Shown here piece by piece: positions 7,479 through 25,430 of a DNA stretch of 64,000 bases. The stretch spans positions 1 through 64,000 of the forward strand of contig NZ_LVEG02000014.1 in assembly GCF_001614315.2 (NCBI RefSeq). Reading direction: 5' to 3'. The stretch comes from Halofilum ochraceum (GTDB lineage: Bacteria; Pseudomonadota; Gammaproteobacteria; XJ16; Halofilaceae). Position 1 is the stretch's first letter. Every line of letters begins with the position of its first letter. Under the pieces are notes generated by a model that was not told the DNA's origin, did no database searches, and saw only the letters and a program-made list of their open reading frames with translations. The position numbers and the translations under genes are program-made.

Positions 7479-7967
7479 GAACCACGAATGAACACGAATG
7501 AACACGAATACTTCATAAAACCACCCGTTTCCATTGCAGCCTCGATTGCCGGAAGTTCAGCAGTAAACCAGCCTGAAGGCCGGTTACGCGAAGATAGTTG
7601 ATCACCTGACCGTACTCTGTCTCTCCGATCTGGTCGATCACTTTGGTTTCAACAATCAGTCCATCAAACACTACAAGATCCGGAACAAACTGCCCCACTG
7701 ATCTGCCGCGGTATACCACGTCGAATCGCGGCTGCTGGTGATACGGTATCCCCTGATACTCCAGCTCGACGACCAGCGCATTCTCATACGGCTTTTCGAG
7801 CAACCCACCGCCAAGATGATTCAACACCCGCATTGCACACCCGACAACCCGCCGGGTTTCGTCCCACATAACGCCCTGAACTCCTTCGCTCTCCTCCATG
7901 TTGCCTCCCTGCAACCCGCCCCGGTTTTGACCTTCTATTCGTGTCCATTCGTGTTCATTCGTGGTTC
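7479..7967. mobile_element. Minimal inverted-repeat element enclosing a GxxExxY gene
   Basis: Bases 7479-7510 and 7936-7967 are 32-base inverted repeats with 31 of 32 positions matching, made of three CACGAAT units. Between them lies almost only the GxxExxY gene: its stop codon is 2 bases from the left repeat and its start is 36 bases from the right repeat. The right repeat ends 7 bases from the parE stop codon and the left one 15 bases from the 5'-nucleotidase start, so the unit sits exactly between two genes. No target-site duplication is obvious. Related inverted repeats without a gene occur at 19810-20128 and 23887-24267. Mobility is inferred from structure only. Confidence 0.6.
7513..7899 (-). 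CDS. GxxExxY family protein, PD-(D/E)XK-like fold
   Basis: The protein is 128 aa from the ATG that follows a strong GGGAGG ribosome-binding site; a second in-frame start lies 15 bases upstream. The family signature is GGGLLEKPYENAL (G-x2-E-x2-Y form). QFVPDLVVFDGLIVETKVI supplies the D-x(n)-E-x-K pattern of PD-(D/E)XK nuclease folds (PF13366/TIGR04256). Family function is unknown. Members are often multicopy and intergenic. Here the gene fills the space between 32-base inverted repeats, which suggests that it either mobilises them or travels with them. The active-site pattern looks intact. Confidence 0.85.
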   Translation of the reverse strand: MEESEGVQGVMWDETRRVVGCAMRVLNHLGGGLLEKPYENALVVELEYQGIPYHQQPRFDVVYRGRSVGQFVPDLVVFDGLIVETKVIDQIGETEYGQVINYLRVTGLQAGLLLNFRQSRLQWKRVVL

Positions 7968-11130: not shown

Positions 11131-11620
11131 GAGCGGGCTTGCCCGCGAACCGCTGACAGAATTCCCCGAAAACCGAAATCATCACTATGGTCGCACGTCG
11201 CCGAATCCGGCCGATGCATGCGCGCATTCGCCTTCGGCGAAGACGCGCCTACGAGGATTACCGTCGCGGCGCGGTACACAGACGGTAGTGACGGTTCGAT
11301 CCCCGGGTAGGAGCGCGCTTGCCCGCGAACCGCTGACAGAATTCCCCGAAAGCGGGAATCATCACTATGGTCGCCCGTCACTGAATCCGGCCGATGCGTG
11401 CGCGCATTCGCCTTCGGCGAAGACGCGCCTACGATGATTACCCTCCGGCGCGGTACACAGACGGCAGTGACGGTTCCATTCCCGGTAGGAGCGGGCTTGC
11501 CCGCGAACCGCTGACAGAATTCCCCGTAAAGCGGAAATCATCACTGTGGTCGCCCGTCACTGAATCCGGCCGATGCGTGCGCGCATTCGCCTTCGGCGAA
11601 GACGCGCCTACGATGAGTGA
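11127..11620. repeat. Three tandem copies of a 180-bp REP composite (BIME-like)
   Basis: Units start at 11127, 11307 and 11485, giving periods of 180 and 178 bases; the third is truncated near 11620. Each opens with GTAG plus the stem GAGCGGGCTTGCCCGCGA. A well-conserved spacer of roughly 80 bases follows, and then a different inverted palindrome, GCGCATTCGCCTTCGGCGAA, closing as GACGCGCCTAC. Each unit is therefore two REP classes facing each other. Copies differ by point changes such as GAGCGGG/GAGCGCG. A linker containing GGTACACAGACGG separates the units. The remaining 11621-11765 shows no gene or clear site. Confidence 0.9.
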
Positions 11621-11765
11621 TCGTCAGGGTCGGCGGCGCGGGGAAGGCCAATGGCTGTTCTCATCTTTGCCTTCTGCGCGCGCCTTGGCGTACTCCTCGC
11701 CTTTGCGAGAACCCGGTCCAGGCCCGATACCGGCTACCCGACGTCCACTGCCCGATGAACCGGAG

Positions 11766-19790: not shown

Positions 19791-19809
19791 CTGGTTCGGA
19801 ACGGCATTT

Positions 19810-20128
19810 AGAACCACGAATGAACACGAATGGACACGAATGCTGCCGCAGGGCTCTTATCGCTCCGGGGAGCTTCGCTGAAATGTCTGCGCGAATGGAG
19901 TCTCGTTTGAACCACAGATAGACACAGATGAACACAGATAAGGTCAAAAGCGGCGATGAGGTGAGATCACCCGCTCGCGGTCTGCCATCGACCGCCGTTG
20001 ACTTTTATCTGTGTCCATCTGTGTTCATCTGTGGCTCTCATCCCCGCTTCAGGACCATCACCCCTTTCAGCGAAGCTCCAACCACATCACAGCGCCCTGC
20101 GGCAGCATTCGTGTTCATTCGTGGTTCT
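19810..20128. repeat. Nested inverted-repeat locus (CGA-type outer, CAG-type inner arms)
   Basis: Outer arms lie at 19810-19854 and 20094-20128. They are identical except that the right arm lacks one GGACACGAAT unit. Subterminal 15-base arms at 19869-19883 and 20065-20079 (GGAGCTTCGCTGAAA) also pair. Inside are second arms at 19909-19940 and 20006-20037 with the same layout, but CAG replaces CGA at each variable position. Pairing continues inward toward a GC-rich loop near 19965-19985. The whole 319 bases can fold into one long interrupted hairpin. The ten-base AAGGTCAAAA next to the inner left arm (19940-19949) also occurs next to the right repeat of the GxxExxY element. No protein-coding gene is present. 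Confidence 0.85.
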
Positions 20129-20136
20129 AGCCCGTC

Positions 20137-23886: not shown

Positions 23887-24267
23887 GAACCACGAATGAA
23901 CACGAATGGACACGAATGCTGCCGCTTGGCTCGTTGAGCGTTCGGGAGCTTCGCTGTGATGCTGTGGGGAATTTTGCCCGTTCTGATAACCAAAAAATGA
24001 ACAAAAGATATACAAAAAATAGTAATGCGCTGGATTCGAGGCTGTGGTCACGGTCAGCCATCAACTATTTTTTGTCCATTTTTCGTTCATTTTTTGGTTA
24101 TGCAGTTTGCACGTCATACACGACGCCATAACAGCGAAGCTCCCTGTAGCTCAGTAGGCCAAGCGGCAGCATTCGTGTCCATTGCTCGGCGCGTCCATGC
24201 GCCTCGCCCCTTTGGGGCTGGCGCGAAGATTCGCTCCCGGCGAATCTTTCGTGTTCATTCGTGGTTC
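23887..24267. repeat. Nested inverted-repeat locus (CGA-type outer, A-rich inner arms)
   Basis: The outer left arm 23887-23930 pairs with the right arm 24158-24267 once a 66-base insertion in the right arm (24184-24249) is removed. Subterminal arms GGGAGCTTCGCTGT (23944-23957) and their complement (24131-24144) match perfectly. The inner arms, 23986-24023 and 24064-24101 (38 bases each), repeat the same plan with AAAA at the variable positions. The order of parts is the same as at 19810-20128. The locus lies between valS and the DUF2970 gene and contains no credible coding sequence. Confidence 0.85.
24184..24249. repeat. REP-like insertion within an inverted-repeat arm
   Basis: This 66-base segment interrupts the right CACGAATG arm after CCATT, and the arm resumes with CGTGTTC. 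It consists of small palindromes: GCGCC/GGCGC arms around CCCCTTTGGGG, then GATTCGC/GCGAATC. The left arm of the locus has no such insert, so the insertion is younger than the inverted repeat. Confidence 0.7.
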
Positions 24268-24274
24268 TCTCTTT

Positions 24275-24600: not shown

Positions 24601-25308
24601 GTGAACTACCTCGCCCATCTCGCCCTCGCCGACGGCTCGCCCGAGTCGATCCTCGGCAATTTCCTCGGCGATTTCGCCAAGGGGCGCCCCGAGGGGCGTT
24701 TTGCCCCGGCCGTGGTCCGGGGCATTCGCTTGCACCGGTCCGTTGATGGGTTCACCGACGCGCATCCCGTGGTGCACCAGGCCATCGCGCGGTTGCCCCA
24801 GGCGCATCGACGGTTTGCCGGTATCGCGATCGATATGGCCTTCGATCACTTCCTCGCCGCGCGCTGGGAACAGGTGGCATCCGACGAGTTCCGTCGCTGC
24901 CGCAGGCACGCGTACGCGGTCCTCACGGCCCGATACGCGATCCTGCCGCCGCGCCTGCAACGGATCCTGCCCTCGCTGCGCGAGGATGACTGGCTCGGCT
25001 CCTATGCCCGATTCCAGGGCATGGCCTTCGCGCTGGCACGCATGAGCCGGCGGCTGTCGCGGGAAAATCCGCTGGCGCTGCTGGCGGACGATATCGGCGC
25101 GAATTACGATGCGCTCCGCGCCGACTTCGATCTCTTCTGGCCGGATGTACAGGCCTTCGCCGTCACCGAAGGCCGCCGCCTTGCGCGGCATTTGCCGGAT
25201 AGCGGGAGCGGCGGGCATCCTGGCGATATGGCGTGCCTGAACGCGGCCGGCCCCGAGGCGTCGTCCGGGCACGATCGCGAGCAAGCTCGCTCCTACAAGG
25301 GCACCTGA
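24601..25308 (+). CDS. acpH: Acyl-carrier-protein phosphodiesterase
   Basis: The 235-aa protein (GTG start) releases the 4'-phosphopantetheine arm from holo-ACP, giving apo-ACP. MNYLAHLALADG, SILGNFLGDFAKG and RGIRLHRSVDGFTDAHPVV carry the His/Asp residues of this HD-like family (PF04336). E. coli AcpH has 193 residues. The extra tail from about residue 205 is encoded by intergenic DNA, including a REP palindrome at 25273-25296, so the frame appears to have run into a REP insertion. The tail is unlikely to be functional. Confidence 0.88.
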   Translation: MNYLAHLALADGSPESILGNFLGDFAKGRPEGRFAPAVVRGIRLHRSVDGFTDAHPVVHQAIARLPQAHRRFAGIAIDMAFDHFLAARWEQVASDEFRRCRRHAYAVLTARYAILPPRLQRILPSLREDDWLGSYARFQGMAFALARMSRRLSRENPLALLADDIGANYDALRADFDLFWPDVQAFAVTEGRRLARHLPDSGSGGHPGDMACLNAAGPEASSGHDREQARSYKGT

Positions 25309-25430
25309 TCGTAGGCGCGTTTTCGCCGACGGCGAACGCGCGCGAGTACGGTGCGGGCCCGATCGGATGTTTCGGGCAGGCCGCGCGCATTCAACCGGTG
25401 CGGTGGCGCCGGTTGAAGACGCGCCTACGG
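25273..25430. repeat. REP cluster after acpH
   Basis: Three GTAG-headed palindromes lie here: 25273-25296 (complement of GTAGGAGCGAGCTTGCTCGC), 25311-25343 (GTAGGCGCG then TTCGCC/GGCGAA arms) and 25383-25430 (GCGCGCATTCAACCGG, GCCGGTTGAA arms, ending GACGCGCCTAC). The last two face each other as a composite; the same pair, in reversed order, is at 62029-62135. The first overlaps the acpH coding end. Bases 25431-25562 hold no gene. Confidence 0.85.

Follow-up and report, generated by a model that had tools for sequence, protein, structure and literature searches.

We have analysed a window of 64,000 nucleotides (positions 1 to 64,000 of contig NZ_LVEG02000014.1) from the 3.64-Mb genome of Halofilum ochraceum, here called G000. 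It holds a small element built around a gene of the GxxExxY family and two nested palindromes that carry no gene, all delimited by inverted arrays of the word CACGAAT. The features on which the analysis rests are the following.

7480..7966, minus strand: gene-bearing element, a GxxExxY gene between two inverted three-word CACGAAT arms (from the sequence, its ORFs and an arm scan)
7937..7966, minus strand: arm 5' of the GxxExxY gene, AACCACGAATGAACACGAATGGACACGAAT
7480..7509, plus strand: arm 3' of the GxxExxY gene, AACCACGAATGAACACGAATGAACACGAAT
7513..7914, minus strand: GxxExxY gene, assigned to a PD-(D/E)XK nuclease family (PF13366 / TIGR04256) by profile searches, alignment A1 and a structure model
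19812..20126, no strand: first nested palindrome, without a gene, between convergent gene ends
19812..19841, plus strand: its outer left arm, three copies of CACGAAT, sequence AACCACGAATGAACACGAATGGACACGAAT
20106..20126, minus strand: its outer right arm, two copies of CACGAAT
19911..19940, plus strand: its inner left arm, three copies of CACAGAT
20004..20035, minus strand: its inner right arm, three copies of CACAGAT
23888..24268, no strand: second nested palindrome, without a gene, flanked by valS and a convergent gene; outer word CACGAAT, inner word A-rich
23986..24023, plus strand: its inner left arm, of the CAAAAAAT/CAAAAGAT type, with an 11-bp period
24064..24101, minus strand: its inner right arm, an A-rich word matching the left arm
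24183..24248, no strand: G+C-rich hairpin of ca. 65 bp, within the second palindrome's outer right arm

Each arm is thus a short tandem array of two or three words. The stretch 19805-20135 folds as DNA with z = -13 against shuffled sequences, and the hairpins are very stable when folded as RNA (z -18.7). An Rfam scan of the window returned a single tRNA and no rRNA. A separate type of repeat lies at 11150-11640, where about three tandem copies of a unit of ca. 200 bp carry REP-like hairpins (GTAGGAGCG..CTTGCCCGCGAA; TTCGCCTTCGGCGAA), with a related stretch at 25300-25430.

Dozens of such palindromes are present in G000. The pattern ATGAACANNNATGGACANNNAT has 61 exact matches in the genome versus none for the reversed pattern, and AACCANNNATGAACANNNAT, with up to two mismatches allowed, has 220 versus 1 for its control, so the palindrome pattern occurs far beyond chance. 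In the usual arrangement the arms form pairs that face inward, often with a second pair about 100 bases further inside; nesting is seen in both orders and there are copies with three shells. A preliminary description of this DNA had placed the arms of the two palindromes where we find them, with a triplet X that is CGA in the outer arms and CAG, three times per side, in the inner ones, and had read the inner arms at 23986-24101 as an AAAA type with some divergence, all of which the sequence bears out. It had also spoken of a constant frame around X. In the sequence this frame is not strictly constant: the connecting letters vary (AA/GA/GG/AG). In the first palindrome, just two words make up the outer right arm.

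The central claim of that description was that X is essentially identical throughout a copy and diverse between copies. We examined 192 complete three-word arms, 122 from G000 and 70 from a sister species (G001). The same X was found three times in 105 of the 122 arms of G000, where 52 were expected from the column frequencies; these arms come from loci chosen by frame matches, so that the proportions of the different words are biased while the agreement within an arm is unaffected. In G001 the figure was 42 of 70 (21.5 expected). Not one of the 192 arms mixed CGA with CAG, and the departures within arms were mostly between CAG and CGG. The same correlation within copies and diversity between them, which the description had named as its test, was found across phyla: the X core was uniform in 109 of 282 arms, versus 9.7 expected, and since 61% of the arms in this sample have some variation in X the concertedness is not absolute. 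Over the 149 loci described below, identity at the variable positions was 0.795 for words of one arm and 0.503 for words of different elements. Mirroring from one arm to the other, index by index, was not found in the cross-phylum set (0.787 for words of the same index, 0.776 for words of different index).

The arms of the element at 7480-7966 agree with the outer arms of both palindromes (19812-20126, 23888-24268), i.e., the gene-less palindromes share their terminal inverted repeats with a coding element, and the sole ORF between the arms at 7480-7966 is the GxxExxY gene. Its product matched both Pfam PF13366 (E 4e-35, 121.1 bits, cut-off 22) and NCBIfam TIGR04256 (E 2.3e-37, 127.9 bits, cut-off 35). 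Numbered from the TTG start, its motifs are G37xxE40xxY43, D79, E89xK91 and Q103xxxY107, and T20 and R21 (positions alpha and beta below) lie at the start of helix 1. The catalytic residues of the PD-(D/E)XK fold are present, D79, E89, K91 and Q103 being invariant or nearly so in alignment A1 and Q103xxxY107 conserved, and the protein is accordingly a predicted nuclease. The structure model was confident (pLDDT 91.7), and its best Foldseek matches were DNA nucleases (a restriction-like protein, the LHK exonuclease and the Cas4-like SSO0001), at low sequence identity; tRNA splicing endonucleases appeared among the weak matches, and no sequence relative with a solved structure was found.

At the same locus G001 has a GxxExxY gene whose protein is 60% identical, within flanking DNA of ca. 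82-87% identity, and both of its arms carry CACAGAT in place of CACGAAT. A further comparison genome, G002, has an empty site there, too diverged for a target-site duplication to be read. G000 contains a second GxxExxY element with CGCCAAG arms between trpE and trpG (L009, C11:178927-179268), within the operon and in sense orientation. This insertion is old, being common to G000 and G001 (L308), with a fragment left in G002 (L310).

The comparison of the two sister species illustrates how the words change. At 26 loci matched by their flanks (83-94% mean identity) the palindrome was present in both, and the palindromes themselves were just 32-79% identical. As all 26 of the compared loci are occupied in both species, they give no sign of recent movement between sites. 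The outer word is CGA in one species and CAG in the other at four loci (L019, L021, L035, L040), and at three more (L034, L036, L051) an A-rich inner word in one species corresponds to CAG in the other. At corresponding sites of the two sister species one entire word set thus stands in place of another, and a locus can have every copy of its site replaced with its neighbours barely changed. At 20 of the 26 loci, a left and a right arm from one genome were more alike than a left and a right arm taken from different genomes. The overall proportions also differ: among the matches listed, CGA and CAG arms stand at 90:11 in G000, which has the CGA gene, and at 29:20 in G001, which has the CAG gene (p 6e-5). 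This shift of the ratio with the word of the resident gene supports the idea that the gene-less palindromes may be non-autonomous copies. In a second group of genomes the abundance of CACGAAG relative to CGCAGAG tracked the resident gene (p 0.007) but, contrary to prediction, the raw counts of CGCAGAG did not visibly do so.

The link between gene and arms extends far beyond this genus. We took 79 GxxExxY loci from genomes of many phyla and compared the two flanks of each by local alignment, with no word motif used. A flanking inverted repeat with a score of at least 30 was found at 81% of them; among 283 controls taken from the same DNA at shifted positions the figure was 1.1%. Adding 70 loci from the phylum of the window gave a set of 149, of which 141 have word triples on both sides. 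The word is about 7 bases long, roughly C-R-C-N-R-A-K, with about three copies per arm that start 8-10 bases apart; because the spacing varies to this extent, the idea that the words keep to a constant helical face was dropped. Protein distance correlates with word distance (Mantel r 0.42, p 0.0005). In genomes with several copies, the word distance among a genome's own GxxExxY elements was 0.54, while to the nearest protein in another genome it was 0.21 (p 1e-6). The gene and its arms belong together across bacteria, and the word follows the protein, not the host genome. One query found no GxxExxY relatives in annotated phages; four relatives were found in viral contigs and eight in plasmids.

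Genes for four-helix-bundle proteins (S23-type, TIGR02436) were also found between inverted arrays of tandem words (L133-L161). Their words are of another class (such as GTGAGGA, AGTGAGT and TAGGCAG), with a period of 7-8, and the flanks scored at least 30 at 65% of 26 loci compared to 0 of 104 controls.

The strongest association with bases 4-5 of the word was found at two adjacent alignment columns at the start of helix 1, alpha and beta in [LI]-alpha-beta-x-[VI]-[VI]-[DG]. A rule by which base 5 depends on beta alone had been stated beforehand; on held-out elements it failed, with 19/31 correct. After the fact, the same held-out loci showed that alpha Thr goes with G at base 5 (21/21) and Ala or Gly with A (7/7). 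The replacement code, assembled after seeing this set, reads alpha first and uses beta when alpha is Ser; its alpha part was fixed before a fresh sample was drawn and its Ser/beta part was not. In the fresh sample Thr predicted G in 9 of 10 cases and Ala predicted A in the single case available (Thr versus non-Thr, p 0.005), and where alpha was Ser, beta Lys or Asn went with A (10/10) and Gly or Glu with G (3/3). Altogether the combined code gives the right base 5 in 180 of 189 non-redundant elements. A tree built without the helix-1 segment that contains alpha and beta shows 26 changes of base 5 and 18 of the residue class; 17 of the latter fall on a branch where base 5 also changes, versus 2.2 expected and at most 8 in 5000 random draws, so common ancestry alone does not account for the match of residues and word. 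For the GxxExxY protein of the window (alpha Thr, beta Arg) the code gives the wrong base, and the sister protein with the same two residues has the other word; residues besides alpha and beta must therefore matter too. The elements with CACGAAT or CACGAAA (that of the window, and L360 and L307 in other genomes) share a helix-1 motif that sets them apart, D-E-x-[YR], and may form a subfamily with a code of its own.

The word changes along with particular residues of the nuclease, which suggests a protein that reads it; it is most likely the site that this protein recognises, and for that reason its copies would co-evolve with the protein. We consider it likely that the palindromes are gene-less members of the GxxExxY element family and that the word is the putative recognition site of the nuclease, with base 5 set by the residues of helix 1. 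The nuclease would recognise the arm word, the arms would be arrays of its sites, and alpha and beta would specify base 5. An element would function only when its arm words fit its nuclease, and because of this need to fit, the copies within an element would change together and different elements would carry different words. The gene-less palindromes would be non-autonomous copies, spread or maintained in trans. Direct DNA binding, cutting, and the moving or maintenance of gene-less copies by the nuclease are steps that we infer from these patterns. Three causes had been offered in the preliminary description for the concerted change of X, namely templated rewriting, slippage-driven homogenisation and selection on a repeated recognition word. 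Selection on a recognition word is the one that gains support, from the correlation of word and protein distances and from the residues that predict base 5; strict templating between the arms is unsupported, given the near equality of same-index and different-index identities.

There are other ways to explain these arrays. The arms might act as RNA, in the form of a long hairpin bound or cut by GxxExxY or by a cellular RNase, in which case the word would be an RNA recognition site and the elements would resemble intervening sequences or be selfish at the RNA level. We take RNA recognition as a serious rival to the reading of DNA, even if we judge it unlikely. The great stability of the hairpins as RNA, the weak matches to tRNA splicing endonucleases, the trpE-trpG copy lying in sense within an operon, and the analogous arms around four-helix-bundle genes of the S23 type, known from rRNA intervening sequences (PMC4990558), would all agree with it. 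However, the best fold matches are DNA nucleases, most copies seen are intergenic and not within transcripts, and base pairing by itself needs no match among the three words of one arm.

Slippage and template switching act on tandem repeats and quasi-palindromes, so that mutation bias could in principle be enough, with slippage homogenising the words and template switching correcting one arm from the other, and no protein reader at all. The better agreement of left and right arms within than across genomes (20/26 loci) and the minor drift between CAG and CGG within a type would fit, and slippage or conversion may help to spread a word inside an arm. As a full account we find mutation bias improbable, because it leaves unexplained that protein residues predict the word (the 180/189 code and the co-change on the tree disfavour it), that the word tracks the protein rather than the genome, and that index-by-index mirroring between arms is nearly absent. 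Slightly less credit still is due to the possibility that these are ordinary transposon-derived repeats, REP/BIME or MITE-like, dependent on an unrelated transposase, in which case GxxExxY would be a passenger. In favour are the many copies, their extragenic position, their hairpins and a separate REP-like type in the same window, but no other gene family was consistently found in these arms, and a passenger gene should not co-vary with the arm word.

The GxxExxY elements are reminiscent of several known systems. REP/BIME sequences are short, palindromic, extragenic and high-copy repeats thought to depend on a gene, the RAYT, flanked by the same repeats (PMC2817692). The palindromes described here are likewise short, extragenic and high-copy, and would likewise depend on a gene flanked by their own repeats, but that gene is a PD-(D/E)XK nuclease and not a Y1 (HUH) tyrosine transposase. 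Each of their arms is an array of about three words, and the arms lie 150-350 bp apart and are nested in shells. As with MITEs and their parent insertion sequences, gene-less copies share terminal inverted arms with a coding copy; unlike in MITEs, there is no DDE transposase between the arms at 7480-7966, only the GxxExxY ORF, and the word in the arms is not the same from element to element and varies along with the protein. The 23S rRNA intervening sequences, which carry the S23 four-helix-bundle protein (PMC4990558), are likewise small selfish elements with one small gene, and genes for four-helix-bundle proteins also occur, at other places, between inverted arrays of words. The GxxExxY elements, however, are not in rRNA, and they have another protein family and another class of word (the S23-type period being 7-8 bases). 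With Cas4 and the RecB-like nucleases of mobile elements (PMC5704561) the protein appears to share the PD-(D/E)XK fold and the arrangement of D, ExK and QxxxY. The resemblance to Cas4 is one of fold only: no CRISPR genes were seen at the loci and no cas gene between the window arms, and the conserved columns of alignment A1 contain no Fe-S cysteine cluster and no invariant cysteine. Iterons of plasmid replication origins are spaced direct repeats read by one protein and co-evolving with it, and the arms proposed here would be similar in having spaced direct repeats and a single protein reader. They differ in that the arrays lie at both ends, inverted, around a nuclease gene, and are chromosomal and not an origin. 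In the open-access literature that we searched there was no prior description of the word arrays or of their link to GxxExxY, though one may exist in subscription papers or preprints.

A great many bacterial genomes have GxxExxY genes annotated without function, and unnamed arrays such as those of CACGAAT, CGCAAAG and CACAGAG are scattered between genes. Linking one to the other gives both a probable role, and the co-variation of two residues with one base makes the specificity predictable from sequence and directly testable. A wider view, for and against which we see the chances as balanced, would be that GxxExxY genes form palindromic elements that are pan-bacterial and self-contained and follow a protein-DNA code that can be read. 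The helix-1 residues would set the word, whole word sets would be exchanged at a fixed site, and the nested shells would keep a record of earlier words; together with the parallel four-helix-bundle family, palindromes of short-word arrays would then be a general class of selfish elements.

Some smaller features recur within the palindromes. The G+C-rich hairpin of ca. 65 bp (GCTCGGCGCGTCC...GGCGAATCTT) is also found inside one arm of many other palindromes of G000 and G001, usually placed at CATT/CGTG, as though it targeted the arm word. A box, GGAGCTTCGCTG / CAGCGAAGCTCC, lies between the shells in most copies of both species, for example at 19868-19880 and 20067-20079 of the window.
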